A DNA stretch of 29,202 nt from a virus. A program made the translations under genes and the position numbers. The stretch spans positions 1 to 29,202 of the IMG/VR virus record IMGVR_UViG_3300020165_000110. The stretch is one strand, 5' to 3'. Below are positions 3,149 to 23,859 of the stretch, piece after piece. Under the pieces are notes generated by a model. That model was not told where the DNA came from. It searched no databases and worked only from the letters and a program-made list of their open reading frames with translations. The first letter of the stretch is position 1; every line of letters starts with the position of its first letter.

Positions 3149-3172
3149 GTTTCTAATTAACTCCGTTATTAT

Positions 3173-3180
3173 TATTTATC
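3173..3180 (-). promoter_or_regulatory. Candidate T4-type late promoter before the tail fibre gene
   Basis: GATAAATA on the minus strand begins directly after the stop codon of the upstream gene. It differs from the T4 late consensus TATAAATA only at the first base. Transcription would start roughly 6-7 bases downstream, just before CGGAG (3161-3165) and the ATG at 3148. Geometry and intergenic position fit a late promoter; AT-richness makes chance occurrence possible. Confidence 0.45.
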
Positions 3181-3801: not shown

Positions 3802-3802
3802 T

Positions 3803-3988
3803 TTAACTATCACCTCTTACTTGTACTAGTATTTCATTAGTGTTCGGGTCAGTAATTTTGATACTTGAAGAAAAATATACACCACTACTTTCGTTTGGTT
3901 TTGCTACTTTTTCTGTCTTTTCATCAATTATCGAGGATAAGACCTTCTCATTTTTTGATTTATTAGTGTTCATCTCTTTATTTATCAT
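3803..3988 (-). CDS. Small hypothetical protein between the giant gene and a structural gene (56-61 aa)
   Basis: This encodes 61 residues from the ATG at 3986-3988, or 56 from the ATG at 3971-3973. The N-terminal half is Lys/Asn/Glu-rich and probably disordered or helical. The C-terminal half, SSGVYFSSSIKITDPNTNEI followed by LVQVRGDS, is strand-forming and resembles the strand-rich start of the next protein (FLTIRDYKTGEVLQ). It may therefore be a small beta-strand partner of that protein. No good ribosome-binding site is seen for either start. A GATAAATA overlaps the first ATG and sits 5 bases before the second, favouring the second if that promoter is used. It is tightly packed (20 bases after the giant gene, one base before the next ATG), which supports its reality. 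Function unknown. Confidence 0.6.
   Translation of the reverse strand: MINKEMNTNKSKNEKVLSSIIDEKTEKVAKPNESSGVYFSSSIKITDPNTNEILVQVRGDS
3810..3816 (-). promoter_or_regulatory. Ribosome-binding site GAGGTGA that decides the start of the 206-aa gene
   Basis: GAGGTGA lies 8 bases before the ATG at 3799-3801 and inside the end of the upstream small gene. It is the best Shine-Dalgarno sequence in the left part of the window. It contains the competing GTG and so argues against initiation there. Confidence 0.6.
3979..3986 (-). promoter_or_regulatory. Candidate T4-type late promoter after the giant gene
   Basis: GATAAATA on the minus strand is one mismatch from TATAAATA and is followed after 5 bases by an ATG (3971-3973). 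A late transcript from here would start at or next to that ATG. It could mainly serve the 206-aa structural gene and the fibre genes downstream, giving them a promoter separate from the 20-kb giant gene. Confidence 0.4.
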
Positions 3989-4008: not shown

Positions 4009-7000
4009 TTAAGTCACATCAGTTGATAGAAACTGTGCAGGAACTGTATTACTTATCTGTAAAGGGTCTCCTAAGGTCGGATTAAAGACATATGAGTTCC
4101 AAGTTTGATTATAATAAGTATCTGCTAATCTATTCGCTGATAATAAACCGTACACTTCTGTGTATTTAGGAATAGAAGATTGAATCGATGTACCGTTAGT
4201 TCCTCTTTGTAATCCACCAACAGCGTTTGTAGCAAAATCAATTGTTGTAAATCTAATTTGTTCACCATTAATATACAACAAGTTCCCTTCAAATGATGTA
4301 ATTGTTAATGAATCCCCTGCTGTAATATACGCACCGTCTGTAATTTTTAATATAGGTGATAAGTTCTCAATAACTATGTTGAGATTTGCAGTATCGATAT
4401 ACAAACCAGTTGTAACATTCAATACTTTTACACCAGTCACAGTATCTTTGTCAGCAGTCAAGCCTATTGAATAGACACCACTTACTGGAGCTGGAGCAAT
4501 ATTACTTTGAGAAATCTGATTTGTCACCCTATCTATATTTCCTACAGGAATTGTTTTTGATAATGGATACAAGCCGTCATTCAACCATGTCCTAGACTGT
4601 ACATTTGCTCTGTAGATACTTGCTTTCTCGTTAGTATCTACTATGTTTAAATATATTTCTTCATTTGGTGTTGAATCTGGAATCATGTTAGTCATAATTA
4701 TAACATCACCAGGTATAATTTCTGTTAAGATACTAACTTCATTATCTGCGCCAAGTCTTAATCGATCATTTGGTACACGTAAACCGTTAACAGTAACCCA
4801 AAGTCTTTCAACATTAGTTTGTTCCCATTGTGTTACATTCATTGCACCAGTATCAGATGATAATGCAAATTCTGCATCTGCTACACCGTTTGTTGTAGTT
4901 GCACTAATTGTAAATGTTTGTGTGTTAATGTCAGTGGACTTGACATAATACGTAGTTCCCTGTATAATACCACCAACGAGTGCATCACCTGATTGTTTGC
5001 TTTGCTGTGTGAATATTACAGGTGTATTTGGTACTAGATCAGACACATCAATTGCAGTAATTTCATTAGTTGATGTAGTAGTCGCAGTTGCCACTGTTGT
5101 TTCTAAGAAGAATGTGCCTTGTCTCCAAACATAACCGCCACTAATGTACTCTGTAACACCTGTCACGGGGTAATTTGTAACATATGGCAGAGGACTATAA
5201 ACTTGAGTATATAAGTCAAATATTGTATCAGTGATAACTCTTACATTGTAAGTATTGCCGTTAAGTTGTGTTGCTCCCAAACAGCCGTCTATCACACATC
5301 TTTCAGTTATCTGAGCAGTACCAGAGCCAGTACCAACACCAGTTGCAGTAAATACTGTTCCTGGATCGCTGTCTGCGGCACCTATTAATGTATAATCTGT
5401 TGTCCCAGTTGTCAGAATAATATATTCTGAACCGACTTCAAATGAGCCGGCAGTTAAGATACTATTGTTGAATCCATGTGCTAGAGTTGTTGTTACTCTT
5501 GTAGTTGGTAATCCACCAACTGTTGCTACCATAAGACCTGAAGCGCCACTAGTGATTGTTATTGTAGTACCGTCTTCGTCTTTAATTGTTGCGTTTGTAG
5601 AACTAACAATTGTGTCTACGAAGTAAACAAGACCTTCTGTTATTTCTACAATATTAGTTCCAGAGAATGAAATTGTATCACCGACAACAAAACCAGCAGT
5701 AGAAGTAAAGATAATCTCATTACCAGTTGTTGTACCAGTTGCAGTTGTAATAGCATTTGCTGGTTCAATTGTTGTTGAGATATCTTGTATTTCATTAACT
5801 TGAACAGCATTCAATGTTCCAACCATTGATCCTGTATCAGTTGTAACTGTGACTGGAGTACCACCAATAGTTGTTGATATAGTAAATGTAGTTGCATCGA
5901 TAATTTCTAAGATGTAATATGTTACACCTGCTGTAATTCCACCTATAGTCGGTGCAGAGAATGTAATTGGCTCGTTAACAGCAAGACCCGATGTATCTGC
6001 ACAAGTTAATGTGTTTAAATCTTCATCGTATGTAACTACAACTGGAGTATTTTGGTCATATGTTTGTGCTGATGGTGTATCTTGGTCAAACGTTCCTTCA
6101 GTATGAGTAGTTGCAGTAACTGTAATTGTACTGAATGAACTTAGAGTAGATGCAGAAATATTATACTGAGTTGTTAAGTATTGTCTATCAGTATCATTAT
6201 AAGTTAAGACTCTAATCTTAGAACTGTTTGCTGGAGCACCATTAGTAAAGACAAGTGTGTCAGCAGATGGGTCTATAGTATAACTCGTAATAGACTGTCT
6301 AAGTCCATTAACTTCAACGATTGCGTTGTGTGGGTTAGTGTCACCTAAGTAGTTAGTGAGATCAAATGATACTTTCACTCCGTCAGCAACAAACTCTTGT
6401 ATTTCAGGCATAGAATATGCATATTGTATTGCTGTTGAATCTTCTCCAAACAATGAGTAGACGATATAATCAGTAGCATTTGACCATGCAGTAGGTGGAC
6501 CAAAGACAAGTTTTGCTTGAATATTATTTGGTTGCACAGAGATTGCATAATCATTAGTGACAAATGATGATATCCCAGATGAATTACCTAGAGTAACAAC
6601 AGTGCCGCCATTAGTTTCAGAAATTGTAAACTCATTAATGTCTACGATTGTTTTAATGTAGTACAACGTGTTCGGTGTAATGTCTGATCCAAACATATCT
6701 TTTGCAAAGTAAATTCTATCACCAGCATTTAAGCCGTCAGTTGTTCCTGTTGTGATTGCATTGTTACTTGCTTTTGTTTGTGTGATTGTAGCAGTATTAC
6801 CTTCAATAAGTTTTGCACCGTTATGATAAACAACTGGTGGCGTCCAAGTAAGACCTGTGCCAACTTGAATGTTTACAACCATCAGACCTGTTGCATCACT
6901 CAATGCAACTGTAGGTCCAGCAAGACCACTTGCAGTAAGTGTGTCTGAAACAGTAATTGTATTTGTTGGGAATGATATTGATTTAACATAATATGTTGTA

Positions 7001-10000
7001 TCTTCTGCAATTCCACCAAATACTGCTCCTTGGAATGTAACCGCAGAGTTTAATGTAAATTTAATAACTTCATCACAAACAATTCTGTCTGTTGATGCTA
7101 TTGTTTCAGTAGCAGTTACTTCAACTGGTATTGATGATGGCTTGATTAAACCAGATCCTTGGAAATAAGTATCACTGTAATTACAGTTGAGATAGATGTC
7201 ATAGAATCCAGTTTCTGTAATTTCTCTAATAGCATCAGTATCTGTGTTTGCTTTAACTAACTGATTACCATTACCGACTTCATATACATCGACTCTTAAT
7301 TTTTCATTTGGTCCAAATGCTAGAGGATTATCAAGTGTAATAACTTTTGTAACCCAGTTAACAGTGTATTCACTTGTTGCAAGTCCGGTACCTAATCCAC
7401 TTGTTGGATTAATAATCTGTAAACTCAATTCGATTGGATATTGAGCAAATGCATCAAAACTATATTCTGTTTGCAGTTGAGTTGTAGGCTCTAATATTTT
7501 TGATACAACATTAAATCCAGTATGTGAATACTGTGTAGCATTCCAAAGTGTTCCTGGTCTCGTATTCACTGCCATTGTAAGATTGTCTTTCATCAATCCA
7601 GGAACTAGTTCTTCTGGTCCATAACCAAATCCGAACTCTGCACCCTTGACATCGTAAGTAGGTTCTGTTACAATGAAGACACTAGATGAAGTCCACGTGA
7701 CTCCGTTGTCAACTGACTGTAAAATTGTATTATCGTCACCGACAACAACAAATGCAGTAGCATCAGAGTTGTATGTGATACCATGTAAGTCTTCTGTAGT
7801 TCCAGATGTCTGTGTTGTCCAAGTTAAACCGTCAGTAGATGTTTGAATTCTACCATCTTCACCGACTGTCATCCATAGACTGTTAGCATAGATAACGTCT
7901 TTTAATGTTTTTGCTGTAGCATCAAGTATAAAGATTCTACATTGATCTGGTATTGCATCGTTTGTTAATGTTACTTGCGATGTTAGACCAGAGTCTGTAA
8001 AGATTTCTATCTGAGTAGAATTAATTACACTTACATAGTAAGTAACACCTGCTGTTAGTCCACTAAATGTGTCTGTTGTTTGTATTGGGTCTGCATTCGT
8101 AAATCCTGCTGTACTTGCAACACCTAATCGATCAGTTGCTGAGTTAATACCAGTAACTAAAACTTCATTGACTCCAGTCCAATCTGCACCGTTAGATGTT
8201 TGATAGATAACATTGTCTTCACCAACTGCAATTGCAATTGTTCCGTTACTCGCAACTGCGTTCAGTCCATTTGGAGTAATTGATATACTATCTGACCAAG
8301 TATTACCGTCTTCGTCTGAAGAATATGATATAATATTAGTTGGTACTAACTGCGTTAATCCAGATGTATAATCATATCGTAGTCCTTTACCAACTGCAAC
8401 AAATCCTGTATAACCTGTTGTAGTAACAAAAGCAGTTCCATTCAACGTAACTTCAAAAACAGTATCATATGTTTTCTTTGTAGTCCAAGTTGTTGCATCT
8501 GTACTGTTGACAATGCCATCACCAACTGCTACATAATAATCACTGCCGTATGCTACACTATTAAGTGCTAATGAAGGTGCAGTTAATACAGATGATCTAG
8601 TTGTCCAAACAATTCCGTCTGTACTTTTGTAAATTGGTGTTGCTATGTTTGATGATGTTATTACGTAGACACCATTACCATATACAATGTCAGTTGCATT
8701 AACAACAATATTAGCAATGTCTCTTGTCGCCCATGAAGTTCCTGCAATTGATGTAATTACGCCTGTGTAATTCGTAAAGTTAGCAGGAGCATAGTATTGA
8801 GTGCCGTCCCATAATATTGCTGGTATCGCAACGCCTGTTGGATAAAATGCTTCATCTTTTAATGTTATGTCAAGTGCATATTGATCTTCTGGAGCGAATG
8901 CATTACCTAAGTAAACTGCATTTGGATATGTTGTTCCAACAAACAACTGAGTCAAATCAAGCCCTGGCATGTTAACTGTTGGTTGATAAAATCCTTCTAC
9001 TCTATCAAGTGCGTTTAATACTCTATTATCTGCTCTTAATTCTTCCCACTTACCAATAATAAATTCTTCATCGTCATTTGATATAACACATCTGTAAACT
9101 CTGTTTAGATATTTTACAATAGACTGATTGAAGTAGAATGGTTCTGGTAAGAATGCATAACTACCTGCTTTAGACATTGTAAATTCTGCACTTCCTGGTG
9201 TTACAGGAACAATGTCACTGCCACCTGGCTCTGTACTTACTTTGATATCGTTTCCTGTGATATCTGTTATATAATATTCTGTGCTGTTTGCTAAGCCACT
9301 TGCAGTTTGCTCTGCTGTACTTAAACTCATAAAGACTACTGTATCATTCACTACGAAAGATGTGGAGTCAGCAACTGTGTATGCTGTTGATGTTATAGCA
9401 GTTACATTAGTTGATGTAAATCCACCAAAGTCAAATCCTATACCACTAACTGGCGTTGTCATTCTTGCATCAGAATAAACTTCTAATTGATTTTGACTGA
9501 TAACTTTTAAATAATACTTTGTTACATAGTCTTCTGGATCACCTGAAACAATCAAACTTGTGACTGCTCCATTTGCATCAACAGTGTTGACTTCTAAAGT
9601 CGCATCATTTGCAGGAGATGCTCCGCCCATGCTAGTTCCAAGTATTGTAATTTTGTTTGTATTTGCATAGCCTGTACCGCCACTGCCTATAATGACTGAG
9701 TAACCGCCTAATTTAAATCCTATATCAAATTCTGCAAATGTTTGTGGTGTTTGAGTCAAGTTAAATGCTGTTGTACTATCTGATAAAGTAACATCACTTC
9801 CACCAGCAGAAGTAGAAACAGTAATATAGTCACTACCTAAACCTGTCATCGTTCCATTGTCTGTAGTCAACGTATATGCGGCGCCACCAATAGATTCACT
9901 AATTGTAAATGTAGTACTACTATCTATTGTTTTAATAAAGTATTCATCAGTGATTGTTATTCCACCTAATCCTGCGCCACTAAAGATAACCGGCATACCA

Positions 10001-13000
10001 ATCCAAAGTGAACTTGTGTCTGAACATGTAATTAAATTACCAGACGAAGAAGTTGAACTACAGAATACAGTTATTGGATTAACTGTTGCTGTACCAGTAC
10101 CTGCTCCAACACCTGTTGCTGTAAATGTAATACCTACTGAACTGCTTATTGCACCAATTAATACATAGTTTGTTGTCCCTACAGTAGTAATTGTGTATAC
10201 TTGTCCTACAACAAAATCGCCTGCTTCGACAATACGATCACTAAATTCAGTAACAAAGTATGGAGTTGCTGTTGAAAGTCCGCCTGTAGCAGTATCGAAC
10301 TCTACTGGCATGTTTATATAGAAGTTGCTTGTACGAGCATCTTGTGTTTTTAATGCAATTCTATTTACAGTGGCAATTGTTGCACCCAATGATCTTGTCA
10401 ATTGATTCGATACAGAAGCCGCTGTAGTTGGAATGTTTGTATAATACTTAGAAGTATCATAGAATGTAAATTGTTGTCCGTTAACTTGTCCAGGTGATAT
10501 TGGCAATGACACATTCATTGTCATTGAGCCAGTCGCAGTTGACAAATCAAATACATCTGCTTGACTTGTTAATAGTCCAGTATCAGTTGTTGCTGTACCT
10601 GTACCTGTGCCTACACCAGTTGATTCAAATATAGTGCCAACATTGTTGTTAGCCGCACCAAGTAGTACATAGTCAGTAGTACCTGCAGTTACGATTTGAT
10701 ATGTTGTGCCGGGCACAAATGATCCAGCAGTTACGACACCAACATCAGTCACAGCAAATGCTGATCCATTAATCGAAGTTGATATTATAATCTGAGTTGA
10801 AGATACAATTTCTCTCACATAGTAAATTCTACCAGATTCAATATTACCATAATTAGTTATGATAGTGCTAGGCAATGTAAGAAAGTCATTAAAGACAATT
10901 GGGTCATTAACAGTAAGACCAGTTGTTGAAAGAACTGTTATTCTATCTGTTGCACTATCTGTGCCAACAAGTGTAGTATTAGTTGCTGTGACTGACGTAC
11001 TAATCGTAATAGTTTCATCATCGAGGACTGTCGTTACATAATAAACGTCATTTTCAACTATGTCTCCAAACACATCGCCTACAAAGAATAAAGGAATACC
11101 TGGATAAAAACCATTAGTTCCGCCTGTACCGATAAGACTTTGTGGAATCGTTATTGTGTTTGTTGTTCCATTAGTTGCAGTTGCTGTCAGCAAGCCAGGG
11201 TAGTTAAGTGTAACTACTGCTGTGTCTGTCACTATACCTGCATATGCAAACATACCTGCACTTGATGCAGTTTCAGTAGTTACAACAAATACAGGACCGC
11301 CTACTGTTTCACTAATTGTAAAATCTGTAATGTCAATAATAGACTTGACATAATAAACTTGATCCACTATAATATTGCCTATTACTGCTCCAGTAAATTT
11401 GATTGGCATGCCAACAGTGAAACCAATTGTAGAACCAGATGAGTTTAATTCACCAGTTGCGTCATCATATGGGTTTAATCGAATTTTATTTCCAGTTGCT
11501 ACTGTGTTTGTAACTCTACGAGCAAACGTAGAATATGATACAGTTTGATCATTAACAGCATTAACAATTTCTAAAACTGCACCCTGTGCTGAAGCCTTAA
11601 TATTTTCAATTGGAGGAGCAGTTGCTTGTAATGAAATTGCAGAACTTGAAACGTTCTCACTATTAAAATAACTACCTGCAAAAAACGAACCGTAGAATGC
11701 ATTTGCTTCCCAATCTAAGATTTGAGATGTGTAAGTAGTTCTATCAAATTTTAATTCAATATTGTTTTCTCTAACTGGTGTTGCATTTGTAATTGCTGAT
11801 GCTTTAGCACCAACATTTAATTGGAAGTTGCCATCAGTTGTTCCAGTTGAGAAGACTACTCTATCAAATTCGTAGACTGCTTCATTATAACTTGTGTACA
11901 AAGCAATAACAGTTGATGGGTTTGTTTCAAGTATATTAACATAATACCATTGATTGTTTATTAGCCCAGTAACTGATGCAGACGATACAGTATCATCTTT
12001 GTATTGTATTAAATCACCAGTTTGTAGATTTGGAGCAAAAACTGAAATTGTATTTAATGTAGAGTTGATATCATCATTAGTAAAGAACAATTGTTCTGCT
12101 GGTGCAATTCTAATTTCTGGTAACACAGCATACCCTTCTCCGGGATTTATAACTTTCACACTGACAACAGAATCAACACTCATCACTGCTTCAAGTTGTG
12201 CTTCAACTCTTGGTGCTGGGTAGACAGTTGTATCAATGTATGCTGTAATTTGAGGTGGCTCAACATAGTTTTTACTACCATCTAGCACTACTACAGCAGG
12301 AAGATCAATAAAGATTTCTGCTCCAGGTACATGTGCTAATGGCGTTGTGCCATCAAATCCTCTTTGTAAACCAATTAGCATGTTCAATGCTCTGTCAACA
12401 CGTGAGTATGATATCTTTTCTGTACCAATTTGTATGACGCCATTGATTGGGAAGCCTGATGCATTGTCAACGAATAAAATTGAAGACCCAATAGGCAGAT
12501 AAACAGAAAGCAAAGTAATTTGATAATCTGTTTGTCCGGTAATTGACACACCGTAATTATTAAACCAATCTTTATATTGTGGTAATTGCCAAATAGCATT
12601 TGTTGGCAAGAACGTTGATGTGTTGTTTACATTCTTATATGATAACTGGGGAGAAACAAATTGTTCTATTGCACTGTCCCAAGTGGCCGGCAAATCAAAG
12701 TCTGTAACGTTGCCGTCATATGTGTCTATACCTGTATACTTAAACAAGAAATCTTTAATTACTACATGAAATGGTTTTGTCTCATTAATATAACTTGACA
12801 AGAACAATTGATTATCTGATGAATAATTTTGTATTGGTTTTAATTCTCTAATAGTATGACTGACATCAACAAGAGAAGTTTTGTTTAACCAAGGCAAGTA
12901 GTTTTGTGATTCATCTGCTTCACTTTGAATGTATTCAAATAAAAGAATCAATGATTTGTTTCTGAACTCAACTAATTCATCAACATAAATTTGTTCGTTT

Positions 13001-16000: not shown

Positions 16001-19000
16001 ATTCCTACTTTGTTTTCTACTGCGCCGATTGCTGTAAAGTCTGTTGGATTTTCATAACAAATACCATCACCTGCTACAAATCCTGCTGGCGGTGTTGTTG
16101 CTGTGAATGTAGTACCAACTTCATTGTCTACTGCACCGAGTTGAGTAAATTCTGTTGATCCAGGGAACAAAATCTCGTAAGATTGTCCTGTTGTAATATC
16201 ACTGGCACCAACTTCTGTACCCAATGACGTAATTTCATATGTTTCAGTTGCAGTAAAGTAACCTGCTGATAATGGAATACGTTCTCTGCTAAGTCTTATT
16301 ACTTGATTGTTTAGTGGGTCACCAACATAAATCCAATTTTGATCATCACTCATAGAAATGCAAGTACCTGCTCCTGCACCAACTGTGATAGTTTGTAATA
16401 AAACTGGATCATCATCTATAACTGAATCGTTTACTGTATAGATGTAAACACGACCTACGGGAAAACCAGTACCATCAGTTGTTTCTGTGATAGCAAACAA
16501 ACGACCCGAGTATGCGATTGCTGTACCGAATGTTGGTCTTGCTCCGCTAATAGGTAATATATTATCACTGTCTGTATCTTGTACAAATTCACCAGTAGTA
16601 TCATCTACAACATAACGATAAACTCGACCGACTGCTGAGTCTCCTAACCAATAACTATATGTGTCTGGTATATACGCAACAGCACTACCGAATGTTTGTC
16701 CGTCTGCTCGATTTAAAGTTGTTGTCATGCCATAGTTTAATGACTTACGATAAACTCCCCAATTTCCATCTTCGGCTTCATCTACCCATACAGTATTCTT
16801 AACAAACTCTGCTTCGTTTAAATCTAAATTATTAATGTCTGCTGGTTGTTCTACACGTTGATCACTAAATGTCAAACCTAAACCATTACCAGTTAATGTT
16901 TGTGGTGGTTGACTCAATGGCAAATTAATAGTTATTGAATTTAAATCATTAACAACAGTAACAATATAATAACCATTAATACTAGATGCTACGTTAATCA
17001 TTGCAAACGGATCTAATAGTTTTAAACCATGAGGTTTAGCAAATGTAATTGTAGTTGTGTTGTTTAAATTTGGAGTAATGCCTACGACCCTACCAACTGG
17101 CTTCCAAGTATACACTCTCCACTTTTCTTTGAAGTTTGCTAACCAAGCATAATCTCTAACATAAAAATCATTGATCGGCACTAATGTATTATTTGAGTTA
17201 ACTGCTTGTGGTAAGTTAGCAAAGTGATACGCCGCTAATTTAACATCGTTATAATTAACAAAGCCTGCTGTTGGGTATAACTTAGTTTCTGGCTCATATG
17301 CTAGTTCTGCTAATATGTTAGCAGATTCAGGAGCCCGTGCGTAATTAAATAGATTCGCAAGTGATACGTTTTGCATTGATCCTTGAGTTGCAACATTATC
17401 TATTAATGCAACTATAGAAGGATTACCTGTTAACTTTGCTTCATTCACTAAGAACTCTACAAAATTATGATTAAGTGTTCCGCCAAACTCTCCTGTTTGA
17501 ATTCCCCAATTTTCATAAACATCATAGTTTATACCACCTGAAGGTAATGTTGCACCTTTAAAAGCAGAAACTGAGTTAGGTGTTCCTTTTGTTTTAATTA
17601 AATTCTTGTAAACATTAACCTGTGTAATGTCAGTCAAGTTGATTGATGCAAGATAGTCTCTAGGTCTAAAGCCAATCAAAGAGAATGCTAATTGATCTGC
17701 ATCGTTTTCTAAGTTTGCTTTGTTACTGTTGTAATACAGTGTGCTTTCATATGAACGTGTTGCAGAGTTAGGCAACAAGCCTTTTTGAATCTGATCTGCA
17801 TCTGTTAGTGTCCACTGACCATCTACAAATGTTGCTGACGGCTGTACTGTTGTATTTGCTGTCCAAAATTTAGATTTGTATGTAACAATAGATCCTTTAG
17901 GATATACAAGTGTAGATGTCCATTCTTTGATGTTGTCTTGGTTAAGAATAAATCCAGACGCAAACATGGTACCGTCCCATTCAGCAGTTTTAGTGCCTCG
18001 TAGGTAAAGTCTATTCTGTCTAAGTCCAGTAACTAGATTATAGATGACATCATTAAACAATGTAGTGTTATCAAACACGATACCGTGTTCTAAGTTACTT
18101 AATTGAAATTGACCATATGACATTGCATCGCCAGTATTCAATGTTTTAACTTCAAATTTTGTATCGAGTCTTTCTATGTTTAAGTCTTTAGTTGCAATCT
18201 GATACAAGTTTTGATTTAACAAGAAGTTTTCATTTTGAATTGTTAAAGGTTGAACAACATCACTCTCTTTTTCAATTTTTAATGTGTTGGCAGATGGACC
18301 AATAGTTATAATAGATCCAGATTCCCAATTAAATTGTGCCCAATACAAATACTCTTTGATCATCAGTTCCCAGTTTAAAGTAACTGAGTTTTCAAGTGTG
18401 TCAAAGACCATACCTTTACGTGTTAAGTATGAACCATAACTTGCTAAGAACTGTGACAGTTGTTGCAATGTATAAAATTGTGTGCCGTACGGTACAATTT
18501 TTTCTTGTACATCTGATTGTGTGTATTTGTTTACAATGTCTACTGAGTAATCATCAACTGATATAGTTGTTGTGCCTGTTCCCAAAATTGGTTGATCAAT
18601 TGTAAAGTATGCTTGATTCTGTGAATTACCATATACTTTCCAACCATTATTCACAAGTTGAATAACAACACTTGAATATTTAATTTCATCATTAGGTTGA
18701 TTATCATGTAGCAACACTTGATAACTTTCATCTGGTATTAACAATGATGAATTGTTTGAGTTTGGTGTTACTTTTTCAACAAGGAATTTTAATAATGTTT
18801 TATCACTAAATCCAGCCAGTCTATATATTAAACGAACATCAACATTGTTTAACAAAGATGTAATAGTTGTTGTTGCATCTACGCCTTGTTGCTTTTCATA
18901 GTCAACGATCCAGTTGATGTAACTTGTTTTTGCTGTGCCATTACCATATATTTCAATATCACTGATGTCTAAATGAGTTCTGTCATCTACTAGATATTGT

Positions 19001-22000
19001 TTAAATTCTGTGTTATACTTATAGTTGTCTAAGTCTGCGCCTAAATTAAAGAAATCTGCTGGTCTAGTCAACGCAAAGATTTTCATCAAGTCAAAAGCAT
19101 ATGATGAACTTCTTCTGTATGAGAATTCTGCTGGTGCATCATCACCTACTTTCCATTCACGTTGAAATAAGTTTTGATCGTAGTTGCCAATTAACGTCTG
19201 CATTGGAGATTTTAAGTCTCCATATTCATCTACTGGAATAATTCTACTTAAACCAGGACGTTTTAATTTTTCTACAGTAACACTAGTTGTTCCGCCTGTA
19301 TTATAAATAATACCCGCTTCTAAGTCATTCCATAATATAGTGTTTTCACTCGTATATGGAGCTGGACCATATTGTGCTGTCCACCAACTTGGCATCTGTG
19401 AGAAGCCTAACATTTCCCATGGTGCTATGTTTGGTTGAGATGTACCATAAAAGTATTCATACACACCTCTCCAATAACCTTGGTCGATAGGAGTGTCAGT
19501 TAATTTATTAGCAGACTGCCAATAGTTCCAAGACCATTCGTTTGCTTTTGTATATCCTTTTTGAGTTTTATAAGCGATTCTATTTTTACCAACCCAACTT
19601 AAAAAGTTTGCACTATAAATCTTTAAGAAGTCATCACTTGAATATGTAGAGTCTGAGAAAAACCCTGGCAATACTTCATAATCTTTTATTGGTACTTCTG
19701 TGCTTAACTTAATATTATTATAAATTCTAGTTTCAAATTCTAATAATGCTTGATCTCTAAAATCAGTAAGTCCTGTTGCTGGCGTATAGTCAAGTGTATA
19801 CAGAGATGTATACGAACCGTCATGTCCTCTTAGCATGTAAGTAGGAGTTTGATAGTTTGGATCTAAAACAACTTCTGGTTGCCATTTAGGATATAAACCT
19901 AACTTAGTAGGCGTGTTTGGAACATATGAACTATATGTTTGATTGTATTCTTTAATAGTTATTTGATCATTTGGTTGCAAACTCAAAGTGACAGTCAACG
20001 ATGGCGAAGTAGATGAAACTGTGTAGTCTACATCTTTAATTAATTGTGTAGTTGTTACAGTACCTGACACTGTTCTTGCAAGATAAACTAAAACACCATT
20101 ATAGTTTGCTGTTGTAAAATTATATGTTTGTGATAACGGATAAATCGATTCTTGCAATGCGTTAGCAAACGTGTATGTGTTTGTTTTGTATGGTGCCTGT
20201 GATGGCAACATATCACTCCAAAAGAATGATGTATCTTCCGTTTTAGATTTAACAATGATGTTTAATGCATCATCTAATATTTTACTCGGTGTAGACGTGG
20301 TAGTCACATCCATATCATTAACAGTTTTAACAACTAACTGTTTGTAATTTGTATATTCTTGTGAGTTGTATTGTAAAGCATTAAACAAATTGTAATTAGA
20401 CTTGCGTAAAAATATACTTGGCAACACTAATGAAGCAGAGTTTTGAATAATACTGTTACCATATGGAACAAGATTACCCAAGTCTCTTAAGTTGTTAGCA
20501 CCGAAAACAACACCCGTTGAATTTGGATTGTTAATAAAGATGTCTTGGTACTGTGATCTAATGTCACCCAAGTCAGCAACTTTTAAATTTTCATTAAATG
20601 GGTTGTTGCTTAAATTAATAGGTATGCTATAATATGCTGTTGTCGAAGGTTGATTACTTAACAACAAAATTTGTATAGGAGTGTCTACTGTTGGCGCAGT
20701 ATTAAACGTCACTGTCGTTGTTTTATCAGTAGATGTTACAGTGTAAGTACTAGGCAATTGATATACATTATTAAGGTAAACTTGGACGTTTGGCCATTGA
20801 GCAGTCACAGTTGAATCATAGGGAATAACTGCAACATCACACGTGAATTCTGCTGTGGTCCCTGCTGTATATTCTAGTTCAAATATTTGATATTGAACTG
20901 AGGGGGCAATGGCTGTTTGCCAGCCTAATTCACGGGTCTTTGTTGTACGTGTAGAATAATCATACACGTAACCTGTATTTACGTTTTGTGTTACTGGAGT
21001 TGTTCCTGTAACATATGAAAATGTATCAACGTTTAATGATACATCAAAACTAATATCACCTTGATTGACGATATCAGAATAACGTACAGGAAAACCTAAT
21101 ATCGGATCATTTATACCTGTACCTACACCGTAAGCAAATAATTTATTACCTATAAATGAAGTGCCTTGATAAATTGTAGGGTCACCAAATGACACATTGT
21201 TTTTATCATAGATATTAAACAATGGTGCTTGATTGACTGTTAGTTTTTGTTGTGCTTCTTCCCATACTGTACCATTAAACCAGAATGTAGAACCTTGATT
21301 ATAATATCCTCTTAGTGCTACTGTTTGATTATCAACTAAGGCTGGTGAGTCAACTGACTCTGACAAAGTAATGATAGGTACTGAACCTGGAGTAATCGTT
21401 GAAAAGCCAACAACATAAATTTTATTTCTAACTTCTAAATTAGTATCTGCTACAAAGGCAATTCTAGCACCAGAAAACAATTGATAGTTTGCAAGTGCAT
21501 CATCAGACCCAACAATTGATGCTACACTCGTAGTTCCAAATGTTGTATTAGATTCCCAAGAAACAGTTAGTACAGTGTTTGTGCCTATAACTGCAAGACT
21601 ATCAATAGAAGTATTTCTTGGTAGTAAGTTAGTTGAGTCTGCAACAAATTGACCTTTTTGGAACGATTTCAAAATATCAGTTGTTGGAATAGTTATTGTT
21701 GTGGTTGTGGCGTTTGTCACAGCCGCAATTGTTGCAGTATAATTAGTGTATGATTCTACATCTGGATAGTATGCTTGTTGATTTGCTACATCAGCAAATG
21801 CATTTGTTGTGCGAGTATCAATAAAATCGACTGGCGCTTTTGCTTCTGTACCAGAATCAAATAGTTTTAAATTTGGATAGAACTCAACGATCGGGCGTTT
21901 TGCTTTATTATTGCCTGTAACATAAGTTGATATGATCGATGGGTTATCATTGTATTTTGCCGTTGCATTGATAACATCAATATGGAACCATCTGTTTGAT

Positions 22001-23859
22001 CTTGACCATGCATTTCTATTAATAGCAGTCCTAGCAATAGTAATATAGTCTTGGTCTACTGGTATAAACAATTCAACATCGAAGTTGCCAATAGAGTAGT
22101 TTAACGTGTCATAAGGAATAAATTCAGTTCCAGTAAAATCTTCTGGCACAGTTAAATCAGTAGTTGGAATAAGTTGTATTGCTTCCCCTACGCCTTCAAC
22201 ATAATATTCACCTGTCAAGTAACTTGTAGGAGTAATATCTCCTTGAAATTCTACTTTAAGACCATTTGTAAATTCTACGCCGTTTGTAGACGTGTATGTT
22301 TTTTGTCCTATAATATCTACATCAACATCAATTGTATTATTCGTGTTACTTTCGATTAATCTTATTGTGCCTACTTTGTTTGGATCTGTACCATCTTGGT
22401 AGTACAATGTATCTAATATAGCAGACAAATATGGAATTTGTGTAATAACACCAAGTGTGCTACGATAGAATTCTAATCCGATATACTCAGTACCGAATTG
22501 AACAGTAATCTTTTCTTCGTTTGGAATTACACCAGCTGGTATCAAACGAATAGTTGGGTTTGTTGCATCTCCAACATATGTAATTGTATAAAAGTTTTCA
22601 TTAACATTTGTATAAAAGCCTTCTTCAAACAAGCCTTCATTAATGTTTGCAGTCATTGTTCCTGTTTCAGGTGTTAATGATATTGCTGGACCATTCAATG
22701 TTTCTGAGATTTTAAAAACAGAAGGACTAACAATCTCTTTTACATAATAAATTGTATCGCTATCTACACCACCAATTAAAGGAGTTGTGCCTACTTGTGA
22801 AAATGTTACAGTTTGATTAAGTACTAAATTTTCAGTAGAGCCAGAAGTAATAACTGTGTCTGCTGTTGTTTCAGTAATTGCTAAAGTAACTGGAGCAACA
22901 ATTTGTGTTGATGTTAAATTAACATCGTAGTTTGCTCCATTCTCATCAAAAAATGATTGAATAAATCCTACTTCGTTTGGCTCTGATGTTTCAGAAAACA
23001 TAACAGTAAGATTTTCAAGTGATGTTACACCATCTATGTTGCCTATTTCAGAAAGAGTTTTGCCATTGATGTCAGAAAATAGTTCGTTACTTACTACATC
23101 AACTAAATTGTTTCCTGGAAACAAATACTGATCTTGTGCATTTCTTTGTGGCACTGTAAATGTAACAAATCCTTGCGATGCACCATTGTTGTTAACACCC
23201 AAAACTTCTCTAGTATTTTGTGCTCCGTCTAAGCCTGTTACTCCAGGCACACCTTGAATCCAAAACTGAGAGTCTTGGTTAACTGCAAATCTATAAGTAC
23301 CACCACGTAACAAAGTAAGTGTTGGGTTTAATGCAGAAGTTAAAGAATTTACTGATCTAATATTATATGCATTTCCTACATCACTTACAACATAGTCAGT
23401 TTCTGCAAAGACAGTTGCTGATGAAACTGAAACAACTGGAGGACCTTCTGGTATCCAGTAATACTGAGTAAAGTTAATTAATTTATCTAAGTTAGTAAAT
23501 GAGTCCCAAGAATAGAATTCACTGTTAAACAAGCGATTGTTATCATCGACAACACCACCTGATAATTTAAGAGCATCTATTAACTCAGGGTAACTTAAGA
23601 AGTCTTTTGCTGTTGATTGATTTTCGTTTAAGAATGCAACACCAGGCGCTAGTTGATAATCTGTACGAGTAGCATTAGGCTCTGTTACATAATAATCTTT
23701 TGCGTTAACACCATAACCAAACTTACTACCAACATACCCTTGCATTTTTGTAGTAGAAGGATTGTTGACTAAGTTGTCAAGGGTCGCTCCTAAAAATTGG
23801 GCGTTGGTTGAGGTTTTGAATATCTCTGGTAAAAACTGTAGTGTTCTTATTCTTGCCAT
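4009..23859 (-). CDS. Giant modular virion structural protein (6616 aa), probable baseplate-attached fibre/adhesin
   Basis: This is a single intact frame of 6616 codons, far above ordinary phage tail proteins. It starts MARIRTLQFLPEIFKTSTN; AAGGA (23871-23875) lies 11 bases upstream and overlaps the gp6 stop. Residues 1 to about 2350 are largely non-repetitive, aromatic and charged (for example YTKANEWSWNYWQSANKL and VRLIYRLAGFSDKTLLKFL), as in large structural proteins of T4-like marine phages. Residues 2382-3145 form an FG-GAP propeller. Residues about 3150-4130 are mixed. About 4130-6340 hold most copies of a YYVK/FTIS module and GTGTA modules, with a YCF48-like propeller at 5036-5395. The C-terminus repeats an internal 'GEQI....GLQRGTNGT' module. 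No signal peptide, membrane segment, lysozyme motif or chaperone domain is evident. Position after gp25-gp6 corresponds to T4 genes 7-10. A structural role is well supported by context; adhesion is inferred from the domains. Confidence 0.93.
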   Translation of the reverse strand: MARIRTLQFLPEIFKTSTNAQFLGATLDNLVNNPSTTKMQGYVGSKFGYGVNAKDYYVTEPNATRTDYQLAPGVAFLNENQSTAKDFLSYPELIDALKLSGGVVDDNNRLFNSEFYSWDSFTNLDKLINFTQYYWIPEGPPVVSVSSATVFAETDYVVSDVGNAYNIRSVNSLTSALNPTLTLLRGGTYRFAVNQDSQFWIQGVPGVTGLDGAQNTREVLGVNNNGASQGFVTFTVPQRNAQDQYLFPGNNLVDVVSNELFSDINGKTLSEIGNIDGVTSLENLTVMFSETSEPNEVGFIQSFFDENGANYDVNLTSTQIVAPVTLAITETTADTVITSGSTENLVLNQTVTFSQVGTTPLIGGVDSDTIYYVKEIVSPSVFKISETLNGPAISLTPETGTMTANINEGLFEEGFYTNVNENFYTITYVGDATNPTIRLIPAGVIPNEEKITVQFGTEYIGLEFYRSTLGVITQIPYLSAILDTLYYQDGTDPNKVGTIRLIESNTNNTIDVDVDIIGQKTYTSTNGVEFTNGLKVEFQGDITPTSYLTGEYYVEGVGEAIQLIPTTDLTVPEDFTGTEFIPYDTLNYSIGNFDVELFIPVDQDYITIARTAINRNAWSRSNRWFHIDVINATAKYNDNPSIISTYVTGNNKAKRPIVEFYPNLKLFDSGTEAKAPVDFIDTRTTNAFADVANQQAYYPDVESYTNYTATIAAVTNATTTTITIPTTDILKSFQKGQFVADSTNLLPRNTSIDSLAVIGTNTVLTVSWESNTTFGTTSVASIVGSDDALANYQLFSGARIAFVADTNLEVRNKIYVVGFSTITPGSVPIITLSESVDSPALVDNQTVALRGYYNQGSTFWFNGTVWEEAQQKLTVNQAPLFNIYDKNNVSFGDPTIYQGTSFIGNKLFAYGVGTGINDPILGFPVRYSDIVNQGDISFDVSLNVDTFSYVTGTTPVTQNVNTGYVYDYSTRTTKTRELGWQTAIAPSVQYQIFELEYTAGTTAEFTCDVAVIPYDSTVTAQWPNVQVYLNNVYQLPSTYTVTSTDKTTTVTFNTAPTVDTPIQILLLSNQPSTTAYYSIPINLSNNPFNENLKVADLGDIRSQYQDIFINNPNSTGVVFGANNLRDLGNLVPYGNSIIQNSASLVLPSIFLRKSNYNLFNALQYNSQEYTNYKQLVVKTVNDMDVTTTSTPSKILDDALNIIVKSKTEDTSFFWSDMLPSQAPYKTNTYTFANALQESIYPLSQTYNFTTANYNGVLVYLARTVSGTVTTTQLIKDVDYTVSSTSPSLTVTLSLQPNDQITIKEYNQTYSSYVPNTPTKLGLYPKWQPEVVLDPNYQTPTYMLRGHDGSYTSLYTLDYTPATGLTDFRDQALLEFETRIYNNIKLSTEVPIKDYEVLPGFFSDSTYSSDDFLKIYSANFLSWVGKNRIAYKTQKGYTKANEWSWNYWQSANKLTDTPIDQGYWRGVYEYFYGTSQPNIAPWEMLGFSQMPSWWTAQYGPAPYTSENTILWNDLEAGIIYNTGGTTSVTVEKLKRPGLSRIIPVDEYGDLKSPMQTLIGNYDQNLFQREWKVGDDAPAEFSYRRSSSYAFDLMKIFALTRPADFFNLGADLDNYKYNTEFKQYLVDDRTHLDISDIEIYGNGTAKTSYINWIVDYEKQQGVDATTTITSLLNNVDVRLIYRLAGFSDKTLLKFLVEKVTPNSNNSSLLIPDESYQVLLHDNQPNDEIKYSSVVIQLVNNGWKVYGNSQNQAYFTIDQPILGTGTTTISVDDYSVDIVNKYTQSDVQEKIVPYGTQFYTLQQLSQFLASYGSYLTRKGMVFDTLENSVTLNWELMIKEYLYWAQFNWESGSIITIGPSANTLKIEKESDVVQPLTIQNENFLLNQNLYQIATKDLNIERLDTKFEVKTLNTGDAMSYGQFQLSNLEHGIVFDNTTLFNDVIYNLVTGLRQNRLYLRGTKTAEWDGTMFASGFILNQDNIKEWTSTLVYPKGSIVTYKSKFWTANTTVQPSATFVDGQWTLTDADQIQKGLLPNSATRSYESTLYYNSNKANLENDADQLAFSLIGFRPRDYLASINLTDITQVNVYKNLIKTKGTPNSVSAFKGATLPSGGINYDVYENWGIQTGEFGGTLNHNFVEFLVNEAKLTGNPSIVALIDNVATQGSMQNVSLANLFNYARAPESANILAELAYEPETKLYPTAGFVNYNDVKLAAYHFANLPQAVNSNNTLVPINDFYVRDYAWLANFKEKWRVYTWKPVGRVVGITPNLNNTTTITFAKPHGLKLLDPFAMINVASSINGYYIVTVVNDLNSITINLPLSQPPQTLTGNGLGLTFSDQRVEQPADINNLDLNEAEFVKNTVWVDEAEDGNWGVYRKSLNYGMTTTLNRADGQTFGSAVAYIPDTYSYWLGDSAVGRVYRYVVDDTTGEFVQDTDSDNILPISGARPTFGTAIAYSGRLFAITETTDGTGFPVGRVYIYTVNDSVIDDDPVLLQTITVGAGAGTCISMSDDQNWIYVGDPLNNQVIRLSRERIPLSAGYFTATETYEITSLGTEVGASDITTGQSYEILFPGSTEFTQLGAVDNEVGTTFTATTPPAGFVAGDGICYENPTDFTAIGAVENKVGILFVATGIGSGTGTANQVSYTDSNEETEIISPVGAGGFGSSVATDANGDTVSIGAPTLTSPEGNANWGTSYVFSRAIQNFESQYNSIPNQPHVFEIAWDELFVARTATNVTSNVITYTGTALTENTAIVFSSTGVFGDSGISPNQVYYVKEVGVGTMSLKTTRSSSTAITLEDDLTLNAIILAQNNSAIRQVSVNGTIVDDNNYAVTGLNEFKYFGTLRAGDIVTVSTSVSTLVQTMIPDEDTRVGTQLGYATDMTSYGSEVLIGAPGEIRMLGTIQSDGSVYRYTNGGGKYGSVIGTSKCLLTADRNLLINGYLVKLVNGSTATDVANVINATGITNIQASATDGKLIISIISAGLALINEKLLLQAVDTATLSDLGLVLYTETQNITAPHNDSRTLFGNTIKFNEKDSVVISAPVSTRYLGTTFDFTDDENLDNDTIFDNNATRFVDTWENAGAVYMYDYLANYNGSVADPGQFVYAQNLNSKEQNYGFEPEYGTALDFNANQVVIGTPNLSYGDLEGQVNLFQNATGIKDWTLYRTPSKTVDINKIQNAQIFSAETNDTLINLDYIDPMQNKLLGVVRENLDYVDNVDPARYNAEIDGINAGLIWGTDHVGELWFDTSTTRWLNYHQNDNVYNASRWGQVFPGSDVAVYTWVSSNNVPSQYTGAGTPKNLQTYSIESTLNASNVVTPVYYFWVRNTDTVMSAEGKTLSDTNLESYIRNPTSSGVSYVTPLLPNAFGLYNCQPYINVNDSVFHIGYATGSNDDPSHQEFSLIRDGADDFLPGLPKFGIQTEANRPEGLYDRLLDSFSGVDEVGAVVPNPYLPKAVQSGVLQRPRQSFFFNRFLGLKNYLKYANTVLADFPISETRENATYLFQTGEFYDTTNYWSYVNWWLPTTNPVGQYNNNTKSSVSVPLYADLSALTVTIGTIARVETNGEGKWEMYRYDGNDVWTRIGLENGTLQFNIYLWDYALGKTGFGDNFFDTDSFDEYPSEETRWIIRALNEQIYVDELVEFRNKSLILLFEYIQSEADESQNYLPWLNKTSLVDVSHTIRELKPIQNYSSDNQLFLSSYINETKPFHVVIKDFLFKYTGIDTYDGNVTDFDLPATWDSAIEQFVSPQLSYKNVNNTSTFLPTNAIWQLPQYKDWFNNYGVSITGQTDYQITLLSVYLPIGSSILFVDNASGFPINGVIQIGTEKISYSRVDRALNMLIGLQRGFDGTTPLAHVPGAEIFIDLPAVVVLDGSKNYVEPPQITAYIDTTVYPAPRVEAQLEAVMSVDSVVSVKVINPGEGYAVLPEIRIAPAEQLFFTNDDINSTLNTISVFAPNLQTGDLIQYKDDTVSSASVTGLINNQWYYVNILETNPSTVIALYTSYNEAVYEFDRVVFSTGTTDGNFQLNVGAKASAITNATPVRENNIELKFDRTTYTSQILDWEANAFYGSFFAGSYFNSENVSSSAISLQATAPPIENIKASAQGAVLEIVNAVNDQTVSYSTFARRVTNTVATGNKIRLNPYDDATGELNSSGSTIGFTVGMPIKFTGAVIGNIIVDQVYYVKSIIDITDFTISETVGGPVFVVTTETASSAGMFAYAGIVTDTAVVTLNYPGLLTATATNGTTNTITIPQSLIGTGGTNGFYPGIPLFFVGDVFGDIVENDVYYVTTVLDDETITISTSVTATNTTLVGTDSATDRITVLSTTGLTVNDPIVFNDFLTLPSTIITNYGNIESGRIYYVREIVSSTQIIISTSINGSAFAVTDVGVVTAGSFVPGTTYQIVTAGTTDYVLLGAANNNVGTIFESTGVGTGTGTATTDTGLLTSQADVFDLSTATGSMTMNVSLPISPGQVNGQQFTFYDTSKYYTNIPTTAASVSNQLTRSLGATIATVNRIALKTQDARTSNFYINMPVEFDTATGGLSTATPYFVTEFSDRIVEAGDFVVGQVYTITTVGTTNYVLIGAISSSVGITFTATGVGAGTGTATVNPITVFCSSTSSSGNLITCSDTSSLWIGMPVIFSGAGLGGITITDEYFIKTIDSSTTFTISESIGGAAYTLTTDNGTMTGLGSDYITVSTSAGGSDVTLSDSTTAFNLTQTPQTFAEFDIGFKLGGYSVIIGSGGTGYANTNKITILGTSMGGASPANDATLEVNTVDANGAVTSLIVSGDPEDYVTKYYLKVISQNQLEVYSDARMTTPVSGIGFDFGGFTSTNVTAITSTAYTVADSTSFVVNDTVVFMSLSTAEQTASGLANSTEYYITDITGNDIKVSTEPGGSDIVPVTPGSAEFTMSKAGSYAFLPEPFYFNQSIVKYLNRVYRCVISNDDEEFIIGKWEELRADNRVLNALDRVEGFYQPTVNMPGLDLTQLFVGTTYPNAVYLGNAFAPEDQYALDITLKDEAFYPTGVAIPAILWDGTQYYAPANFTNYTGVITSIAGTSWATRDIANIVVNATDIVYGNGVYVITSSNIATPIYKSTDGIVWTTRSSVLTAPSLALNSVAYGSDYYVAVGDGIVNSTDATTWTTKKTYDTVFEVTLNGTAFVTTTGYTGFVAVGKGLRYDYTSGLTQLVPTNIISYSSDEDGNTWSDSISITPNGLNAVASNGTIAIAVGEDNVIYQTSNGADWTGVNEVLVTGINSATDRLGVASTAGFTNADPIQTTDTFSGLTAGVTYYVSVINSTQIEIFTDSGLTSQVTLTNDAIPDQCRIFILDATAKTLKDVIYANSLWMTVGEDGRIQTSTDGLTWTTQTSGTTEDLHGITYNSDATAFVVVGDDNTILQSVDNGVTWTSSSVFIVTEPTYDVKGAEFGFGYGPEELVPGLMKDNLTMAVNTRPGTLWNATQYSHTGFNVVSKILEPTTQLQTEYSFDAFAQYPIELSLQIINPTSGLGTGLATSEYTVNWVTKVITLDNPLAFGPNEKLRVDVYEVGNGNQLVKANTDTDAIREITETGFYDIYLNCNYSDTYFQGSGLIKPSSIPVEVTATETIASTDRIVCDEVIKFTLNSAVTFQGAVFGGIAEDTTYYVKSISFPTNTITVSDTLTASGLAGPTVALSDATGLMVVNIQVGTGLTWTPPVVYHNGAKLIEGNTATITQTKASNNAITTGTTDGLNAGDRIYFAKDMFGSDITPNTLYYIKTIVDINEFTISETNGGTVVTLGNSSGISSFVTNDYAISVQPNNIQAKLVFGPPTAWSNATDYIVYSLFGEDSTAIQYAYSMPEIQEFVADGVKVSFDLTNYLGDTNPHNAIVEVNGLRQSITSYTIDPSADTLVFTNGAPANSSKIRVLTYNDTDRQYLTTQYNISASTLSSFSTITVTATTHTEGTFDQDTPSAQTYDQNTPVVVTYDEDLNTLTCADTSGLAVNEPITFSAPTIGGITAGVTYYILEIIDATTFTISTTIGGTPVTVTTDTGSMVGTLNAVQVNEIQDISTTIEPANAITTATGTTTGNEIIFTSTAGFVVGDTISFSGTNIVEITEGLVYFVDTIVSSTNATIKDEDGTTITITSGASGLMVATVGGLPTTRVTTTLAHGFNNSILTAGSFEVGSEYIILTTGTTDYTLIGAADSDPGTVFTATGVGTGSGTAQITERCVIDGCLGATQLNGNTYNVRVITDTIFDLYTQVYSPLPYVTNYPVTGVTEYISGGYVWRQGTFFLETTVATATTTSTNEITAIDVSDLVPNTPVIFTQQSKQSGDALVGGIIQGTTYYVKSTDINTQTFTISATTTNGVADAEFALSSDTGAMNVTQWEQTNVERLWVTVNGLRVPNDRLRLGADNEVSILTEIIPGDVIIMTNMIPDSTPNEEIYLNIVDTNEKASIYRANVQSRTWLNDGLYPLSKTIPVGNIDRVTNQISQSNIAPAPVSGVYSIGLTADKDTVTGVKVLNVTTGLYIDTANLNIVIENLSPILKITDGAYITAGDSLTITSFEGNLLYINGEQIRFTTIDFATNAVGGLQRGTNGTSIQSSIPKYTEVYGLLSANRLADTYYNQTWNSYVFNPTLGDPLQISNTVPAQFLSTDVT
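4150..4330 (-). repeat. C-terminal copy of the 'GEQIRF...GLQRGTNGT' module (residues about 6511-6570)
   Basis: It contains DSLTITSFEGNLLYINGEQI, then RFTTIDFATNAVGGLQRGTN and GT....IPKYTEVYGL, followed by a final NRLADTYYNQTWNSYVF. It matches the internal copy near 12300-12480. I recall similar C-terminal ends (GERI.Y...GQLRRGTLGT) in giant proteins of T4-like cyanophages, so this end may be a conserved cap beyond the variable module array. Confidence 0.5.
5311..5455 (-). repeat. GTGTA-type module near the C-terminus (residues about 6136-6183)
   Basis: It reads AGSFEVGSEYIILTTGTTDY followed by TLIGAADSDPGTVFTATGVG and TGSGTA. It is followed by the only cysteine pair noticed nearby, ERCVIDGCLG. 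Same family as the other copies, 4.6 kb further downstream in the gene. Confidence 0.65.
7675..8755 (-). repeat. YCF48/BNR-like propeller repeats in the giant protein (residues about 5036-5395)
   Basis: Repeats of the type 'L..V.Y....YVAVGD.G.I..S.DG.TWT' are visible. They are DIVYGNGVYVITSSN...STDGIVWTTRS, SVAYGSDYYVAVGDG...DATTWTTK, FVAVGKGLRY...DEDGNTWSDS, NAVASNGTIAIAVGEDNVIY...NGADWTG, DVIYANSLWMTVGEDGRIQT...DGLTWTTQ and GITYNSDATAFVVVGDD...DNGVTWTSS. This is the pattern of YCF48-type and sialidase (BNR/Asp-box) propellers. A YYVK module (about 7960-8160) is inserted between the fourth and fifth repeats. No sialidase catalytic arginine triad was recognised, so a binding or structural role is more likely than an enzyme. 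Confidence 0.65.
10084..10235 (-). repeat. GTGTA-type module (residues about 4542-4592)
   Basis: It reads AGDFVVGQVYTITTVGTTNY followed by VLIGAISSSVGITFTATGVG and AGTGTA. It is placed between YYVK-type modules, about 500 bases from the previous copy and close to it in sequence. Confidence 0.65.
10591..10737 (-). repeat. GTGTA-type module (residues about 4375-4423)
   Basis: It reads AGSFVPGTTYQIVTAGTTDY followed by VLLGAANNNVGTIFESTGVG and TGTGTA. It is clearly the same unit as those at 15955-16210, 10084-10235 and 5311-5455. It lies between two YYVK modules. Confidence 0.65.
12300..12480 (-). repeat. Internal copy of the 'GTEKISYSR...GLQRGFDGT' module (residues about 3795-3855)
   Basis: This segment contains SILFVDNASGFPINGVIQIG, then TEKISYSRVDRALNMLIGLQ and RGFDGT..LAHVPGAEIF. 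The same order of elements (a hydrophobic strand, IG/NG-E-I-Y/F, L.GLQRG..GT, then a closing V.) recurs at the extreme C-terminus of the protein, indicating a duplicated small beta domain. Confidence 0.55.
14425..16715 (-). repeat. FG-GAP / integrin-alpha-like seven-bladed propeller in the giant protein (residues about 2382-3145)
   Basis: Seven blade-like units can be read in order. They are QTFGSAVAYIP...VGRVYRY, PTFGTAIAYSG...GRVYIYTV, GTCISMSDDQNWIYVGDP, GGFGSSVATDANGDTVSIGAP, TQLGYATDMTSYGSEVLIGAP, LFGNTIKFNEKDSVVISAP...GAVYMYDY, and YGTALDFNANQVVIGTPN...GQVNLFQ. The 'FG.S.A....G..V.IGAP......G.VY.Y' pattern is the FG-GAP blade of integrin alpha chains and bacterial surface proteins. Units 3 and 4 are separated by two GTGTA-type modules, and 4 and 5 by a YYVK module. 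The count was made by eye. Such propellers usually serve ligand binding. Confidence 0.7.
15955..16210 (-). repeat. Tandem pair of GTGTA-type modules inside the FG-GAP propeller
   Basis: Two related units follow each other. The first reads TTGQSYEILFPGSTEFTQLG then AVDNEVGTTFTATTPPAGF. The second reads VAGDGICYENPTDFTAIG then AVENKVGILFVATGIGSGTGTA. Pattern: G..Y.I...G.T.FT.IGA..N.VG..F.ATG.G.GTGTA. They interrupt the propeller between blades 3 and 4. Confidence 0.65.
16720..23859 (-). other. N-terminal, mostly non-repetitive structural region of the giant protein (residues 1 to about 2380)
   Basis: This part lacks most of the repeats that fill the rest. It opens with an FLPEIF...QFLGATLDNLV motif and a NLDKLINFTQYYWIPEGPP segment. 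It then contains long stretches rich in Trp, Tyr and charged residues: DFRDQALLEFETRIYNN, KNRIAYKTQKGYTKANEW, PSWWTAQYGPAPYT, FDLMKIFALTRPADFFNLG. Two hairpin-like units of the type V.VYLNNVYQLPSTYTV ... TFNTAP sit near residues 1015-1066 and 1254-1305. One YYVKEI/FKISET module lies early (about residues 330-405). Its composition suggests the folded core that docks on the baseplate, probably the segment best conserved among relatives. This is inference from composition and from memory of related proteins. Confidence 0.6.

Follow-up and report, generated by a model that had tools for sequence, protein, structure and literature searches.

A predicted 6616-residue member of the PHROG 10938 family of phage structural proteins, encoded directly after a gp6-like baseplate gene

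The DNA analysed here is a 29,202-nucleotide stretch of a viral record (IMG/VR IMGVR_UViG_3300020165_000110, positions 1 to 29,202; hereafter the window), most of which is occupied by a single giant gene. The gene is real and selected along its length, as established by intact frames in relatives and by dN/dS. Judged by profile matches, its product belongs to PHROG 10938, a known but poorly understood giant structural family of jumbo phages, and the lineage of the window is the longest of that family found here. The protein is probably a one-chain baseplate wedge or arm scaffold that lies beside gp6, replaces gp7, gp8 and gp10 of T4, and carries modules projecting to the host surface or to fibres. 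The gene and its neighbours are as follows.

27293..27748, minus strand: gp25-like baseplate gene, 151 aa (PF04965, 30.4 bits against a cut-off of 27.2)
23874..27239, minus strand: gp6-like baseplate wedge gene, 1121 aa (phrog_10646, E 1.4e-261; phrog_219, E 3.4e-24)
4009..23859, minus strand: giant structural gene, ATG start, one intact frame, 6616 aa, ~720 kDa
3181..3813, minus strand: conserved downstream gene, 210 aa (phrog_11259)

A sequence-only reading of this DNA had described one uninterrupted 6616-codon gene, placed 14 bases after gp6 and kept open by selection, and the analysis bears out all three points. The frame was verified in full, the gene upstream is gp6-like, and the gap between its stop and the giant ATG measures 14 bases, with a TAAGGA 5' of the ATG as a plausible ribosome-binding site. 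Under an independent-base model with the composition of the window, the probability of 6,616 sense codons arising by chance is ~1e-216. Across 14 bins of 500 codons each, GC at third codon positions never leaves the range 0.158-0.252. In a comparison with five relatives, every one of the 52 bins, each of at most 600 codons, shows purifying selection, with dN/dS values of 0.095-0.402; bins with fewer than 100 aligned codons were left out, two of these relatives extend no further than residues 5,294 and ~5,660, and dS approaches saturation in the more distant ones.

Residues 1400-2350 served as the query in a search of IMG/VR for relatives, which returned 242 related stretches; the best 80 of the 242 were fetched (the near relatives), and whole-record searches were run for 40 of these 80 loci. 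A single open frame of 5,622-7,757 aa is present in 38 of the 40 records and broken in two, these lengths including the part upstream of the ATG and some contigs possibly stopping inside the gene. Thirty of the 40 were read to the C-terminus, and 28 of them are uninterrupted with the same two ends. Together with the window, these 28 make up a set of 29 giants of 5,940-7,756 aa (median 6,494), every one of which carries [IV]RT..FLP[ED][IV]F near its start and PL[QS]I[SA] near its end. The claim that a protein of this size ranks with the largest of any phage is fair, but it is not unique in size: phrog_701, a PHROGs virion structural profile, has 6,136 positions, and one relative reaches 7,756 aa.

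Stops common to the relatives, at which the gene might be divided into several, were not seen. Only two relatives are broken, and at different points: L012 has one frame change near residue 2950 and is covered from end to end, and L030 is split into five open pieces. The pieces of L030 mostly have overlapping frames, as would be expected of a contig with many errors. No tandem array was found, and no exact 20-mer is repeated within the giant gene, so mis-joined repeats are unlikely. The absence of such repeats and the 28 of 30 intact relatives rule out an assembly artefact.

Assignment to the family rests on a search with four overlapping pieces of the protein, three of which match PHROG 10938 (E 3.4e-131, 3.5e-120 and 1.1e-41); the fourth, residues 4900-6616, does not match it, and no Pfam model was found for any of the four at E <= 0.01. 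PHROG 10938 is named 'virion structural protein', has 3,324 positions and is placed in the category 'head and packaging'; in the records seen, its members carry no fuller annotation than 'virion structural protein' or 'hypothetical protein'. A tblastn search with residues 1400-2350 matched 58 isolated-phage records, all below 60% identity, which include RaK2-like and PA5oct-like jumbo phages, Atu_ph07 and SCTP-2. Five isolates were fetched for comparison: RaK2 (3326 aa), CBB (CBB_236, 3340 aa), Atu_ph07 (gp180, 4449 aa), phi30-3 (3857 aa) and SCTP-2 (gp140, 3807 aa).

The proteins of all five isolates share with the window protein not only the sequence family but a colinear series of blocks, at window residues 1-192, ~500-690, ~750-2290 and 3140-3770, the last extending to 3398 in RaK2 and CBB. 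Beyond residue ~3770 nothing similar was found in the five at E <= 0.001. The window protein is 1.5-2x longer than theirs through the addition of modules of repeat and binding type; it has 14 copies of a repeat, R1, against none in the five isolates.

The family extends well beyond these phages. With a broader alignment as query, relatives were found encoded in at least 591 stretches of viral contigs; 84 distant loci were fetched from this query and from those with the RaK2 and Atu_ph07 cores, and 52 of the 84 have a complete frame, 2,613-5,195 aa long from stop to stop. With single isolate cores as queries of IMG/VR, the RaK2 core found three loci, one of them RaK2, the Atu_ph07 core found only itself, the phi30-3 core matched no stretch and the SCTP-2 core found no relative. 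In the literature, subscription journals and preprints aside, neither a structure of a PHROG 10938 protein nor a report of the 6-7 kaa lineage was found.

By annotation and PHROG matches, the order gp25-gp6-giant is common to the window and to RaK2, CBB, Atu_ph07 and phi30-3, four of the five isolates. SCTP-2 departs from it, with a propeller-repeat protein of 3,096 aa encoded by the preceding gene (L083 3540-12830), in which no gp6 PHROG match was found. A beta-propeller repeat PHROG, phrog_8401, covers most of the length of that protein. On the other side of the giant gene, the 210-aa downstream gene is matched in 39 of 40 relatives' records and is 82-99% identical across these 39, against 57-73% for the giant core (39 of 40). 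Further downstream, a 410-aa gene at 1916-3148 on the minus strand matches phrog_14394, 'virion structural protein', and has a sub-threshold similarity to Peptidase_G2, the IMC autoproteolytic domain (PF11962, E 0.00037, 20.4 bits against a cut-off of 25). The window is a 29-kb fragment, and a relative of 61% identity sits on a 333-kb contig; the phage of the window would likewise be jumbo-sized.

Within the giant protein, conserved and variable regions alternate. The principal features are listed here from the N-terminus.

23410..23859, minus strand: N-terminal domain, residues 1-150, common to the five fetched isolates
22354..23412, minus strand: predicted cupredoxin-like beta-sandwich, residues ~150-502 (model), interrupted by an insertion with R1 copy 1
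17365..20631, minus strand: conserved core, residues 1077-2165 (PHROG 10938 match)
19939..20193, minus strand: tail-fibre/tailspike N-terminal attachment-like domain, residues 1223-1307 (structural alignment of the model)
17794..17940, minus strand: CBM5/12 (chitin-binding-like) module, residues 1974-2022 (structure alignment and profile)
14410..16662, minus strand: propeller-like variable repeat region, residues 2400-3150 (motif density)
12550..14412, minus strand: second conserved block, residues 3150-3770, to ~3398 in RaK2 and CBB (PHROG 10938)
12325..12438, minus strand: repeat R4 copy 1, residues 3808-3845 (profile self-comparison)
4840..11520, minus strand: C-terminal array, residues 4114-6340, with 12 of the 14 R1 copies and R2 copies
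7669..8706, minus strand: BNR-like stretch, residues 5052-5397, containing a match to PF19755 (DUF6242, 30.9 bits against a cut-off of 29)
4165..4278, minus strand: repeat R4 copy 2, residues 6528-6565 (profile self-comparison)
4012..4164, minus strand: C-terminal tail with PL[QS]I[SA], present in all 29 giants

In the alignment of the 29 giants, variability is strongest near residues 300-400, 2400-2600, 2700-2800, 4300-4600, 5900-6000 and 6100-6200, and many of the variable segments coincide with repeats. The repeats were found by sliding-profile self-comparison, and R1 by an iterated profile. R1 spans 74 columns and occurs in 9-16 copies across the 29 giants, a number weakly related to protein length (Spearman 0.38, p 0.04); one copy was found in seven of the 84 distant relatives, many of which are truncated. 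The window protein also holds about four copies of R2 and two of R4. The R1-rich residues 5575-6020 gave no tblastn match among isolated phages at 1e-5. In the propeller-like region, which we take to be FG-GAP-like, a GAP-type motif is ~14x denser than elsewhere in the 29 giants (82 per 20,204 residues at 2400-3160, against 50 per 169,253), and no Pfam match was found for residues 2400-3150. A profile search gave a module of CBM5/12 type with E 0.0054 at residues 1974-2022 and with E 0.00039 at a site absent from the window.

An AlphaFold model of residues 1070-2269 (mean pLDDT 81, pTM 0.70) is mixed alpha/beta. Against the PDB it has no match at E <= 0.001, and against BFVD it matches its own family, for example Atu_ph07 with E 1.2e-55. 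Two uncultured relatives of the core in BFVD, A0A6J5T0D1 and A0A6J5L0K2, are named 'YHYH domain containing'; the available part of a review (PMC7824862) gives YHYH as a predicted metal-dependent hydrolase of phage tails, and the window protein has no Pfam match to a YHYH domain. Within the core model, residues 1223-1307 align with 7rfv (Z 8.3, rmsd 1.9, 64 aligned), the nine best matches all being phage chains, and a Z near 8 can, by the aligner's own warning, mean a common arrangement. At residues 1974-2022 a second-look structural aligner found chitin-binding modules. At the sequence level, the best PDB match to a six-sequence core profile has E 0.17, and that to an N-terminal profile E 0.19.

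The model of residues 1-720 is of lower quality (pLDDT 76, pTM 0.43). In it, residues 148-502 form a predicted cupredoxin-like sandwich that aligns with rusticyanin (Z 10.1, rmsd 2.1 A, 94 aligned), which points to a cupredoxin fold for residues ~150-502. Foldseek alone returned multicopper oxidases at low probability for this model, and neither Pfam nor PDB sequences matched the domain; a search of PDB sequences with the 1-720 profile and with one copper-motif relative gave nothing up to E 10. PF25489 appears below its own Pfam cut-off in three distant relatives. The type-1 copper ligands His-Cys-His-Met are not kept in the window protein, which has LYYQDGTDPNKVG at residue 485. At this place 19 of the 84 distant relatives (L149, L164, L183 and L188 among them) carry the motif YYxCxxHxxM, the residues of which are presumably copper ligands; the motif was looked for within the first 1500 residues, where none of the 80 near relatives has it, and GHPF[WY]I accompanies it in 13 of the 19.

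One relative of the protein, and a second protein taken to be one, have been seen in virions. According to the accessible part of the CBB study (PMC5259590), mass spectrometry of virions detected CBB_236 by 21 peptides (7.72% coverage). The corresponding part of the phAPEC6 study (PMC7247149) reports gp245, of 381.88 kDa, in virions by 17 peptides (7.6% coverage) and numbers it beside the wedge protein gp244; this position and its size are the grounds for taking gp245 as a homologue. For MIJ3, mass spectrometry of several bands named four virion proteins, and a giant homologue is not among the names in the portion of the paper at hand (PMC6892783). The PHROG 10938 match and the detection of the CBB member agree with the earlier proposal of a structural product. 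A resolved virion position was found for no family member in the sources available, in which the phAPEC6 tail reconstruction is at ~25 A (PMC7247149).

These results are best explained by the wedge or arm scaffold. In this mechanism the conserved blocks (N-terminal, ~500-690, 750-2290 and 3140-3770) would form one long scaffold docked next to gp6 and standing in for T4 gp7, gp8 and gp10. From this scaffold would project the insertions specific to the lineage, the C-terminal array (propeller-like, R1/R2) and the CBM5/12-like module of the core, which may touch the host surface or serve to hold further fibres. The explanation is favoured by the PHROG 10938 match, the gp25-gp6 neighbours in four of five isolates and the colinear blocks in all five; by the presence of CBB_236 and phAPEC6 gp245 in virions, as far as the accessible text of both studies goes; by gp7, gp8 and gp10 profiles that are absent or fragmentary where gp6 is found in eight of nine records; and by the fibre-attachment-like domain, the CBM5/12-like module, DUF6242 and the coincidence of variable segments with repeats. 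Counting against it are the lack of gp7 similarity, a core with no PDB match at E <= 0.001, the SCTP-2 preceding gene with no gp6 match, the PHROGs category 'head and packaging', and the MIJ3 virion proteins, whose names in the text available include no giant homologue. It is doubtful, and put forward here tentatively, that a 0.72-MDa chain alone replaces gp7, gp8 and gp10 as an entire wedge arm, with exchangeable modules for reading surfaces (one of carbohydrate-binding type, propellers and 9-16 copies of one repeat) inserted in a conserved scaffold of novel fold and, in some relatives, a cupredoxin with a complete copper-type motif.

It is unlikely that the protein is instead a giant fibre or adhesin on the baseplate, with most of the chain an extended receptor-binding filament. 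The last 2,850 residues, past the last shared block, do hold 12 R1 copies and the BNR-like stretch, and the CBM5/12-like module and the fibre-attachment-like domain would suit such a filament, but the first 3,770 residues carry the blocks common to isolates that have no R1, no fibre family was matched and the core model is not fibre-like. Of the baseplate-attached fibre first suggested for this gene, attachment to the baseplate is supported by position, and the fibre is not supported, given the mixed alpha/beta core. No known fibre or adhesin family was found in Pfam or PHROGs, only the small CBM5/12-like and BNR-like modules. From such sequence features, the multi-receptor adhesin of the earlier reading is plausible for the variable parts, namely the CBM5/12-like module, the repeats and the propeller-like stretches.

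Less probable still is a polyprotein-like precursor, cut after translation into several baseplate proteins. The size of the chain, and its standing where T4 has separate genes, would fit a precursor, but no protease family was matched in the chain, and the accessible parts of the two virion studies list CBB_236 and phAPEC6 gp245 as single products, at coverages (7.72% and 7.6%) too low to exclude cleavage. A head or neck structural protein, suggested by the 'head and packaging' category of PHROG 10938, is highly improbable beside gp6 and gp25, which adjoin the gene in the window and in four of the five fetched isolates.

A comparison of the wedge or arm scaffold with the baseplate of T4 shows a likeness of place and a difference of sequence. 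The T4 wedge initiator gp7 stands, as the window giant does, directly after gp6, and has 1,032 aa against 6616. The claim that the gene lies where T4 carries genes 7, 8 and 10 stands as to position, but no homology to their products is recognisable. Against a four-sequence gp7 alignment, hhalign gave probabilities of at most 0.4% for the window-lineage and family profiles, no 600-residue slice rose above 20%, and no gp7 chain is among the matches listed for the models of residues 1-720 and 1070-2269. Profiles were also run on nine large records of the family; five belong to the window lineage, and the four distant ones include RaK2 and Atu_ph07. The gp7 profile phrog_964 was found in none of the nine; in its controls T4 was positive and one of 14 control genomes gave a signal. 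A cyanophage-type gp8 profile gave short matches only, in three of the nine, inside frames of 385-4,450 aa. Since this profile only partly matches T4's own gp8, a T4-type gp8 profile was searched as well; it detects T4 and Syn1, and none of the nine records. The gp10 profile returned only fragments, of 31-49 or 92 positions, in six of the nine. Homology to T4 gp7, gp8 or gp10 was accordingly rejected as an identification, profile and sequence searches having found no recognisable homologue; the missing matches can equally reflect divergence or incomplete records.

Cyanophages offer another parallel. The proteins of S-SSM7 (3,007 aa, annotated gp7) and Syn1 (3,274 aa) likewise follow gp25 and gp6. 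They have a few small modules in common with the window protein and no whole-length similarity to it, and the N-terminal domain profile does not align with the first 300 residues of the Syn1 protein. A further difference is that both genomes carry a separate annotated gp8. S-SSM7 (L203 5562-24656) has two 3,000-aa genes that are both annotated gp7, the second with a BNR-like stretch like window residues 5312-5385 (40.5% identity).

The accessible part of one study (PMC7029224) describes cyano- and pelagimyophages without gp7, with the large protein VrlC in its place. Replacement of gp7 by large proteins would on this account be a known theme, and VrlC and the window giant are alike as large baseplate proteins of phages in which no gp7 is found. 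Only weak similarity to VrlC was seen: Syn1_097, taken as VrlC because of its label 'virulence associated', is the only place where the window profile matched (best E 0.0017). Because the PHROG 10938 proteins occupy the place of the T4 wedge and peripheral baseplate genes, the family may represent a different construction of the rim with which a contractile tail senses its host. The lineage of the window shows how far one chain can grow under end-to-end selection.
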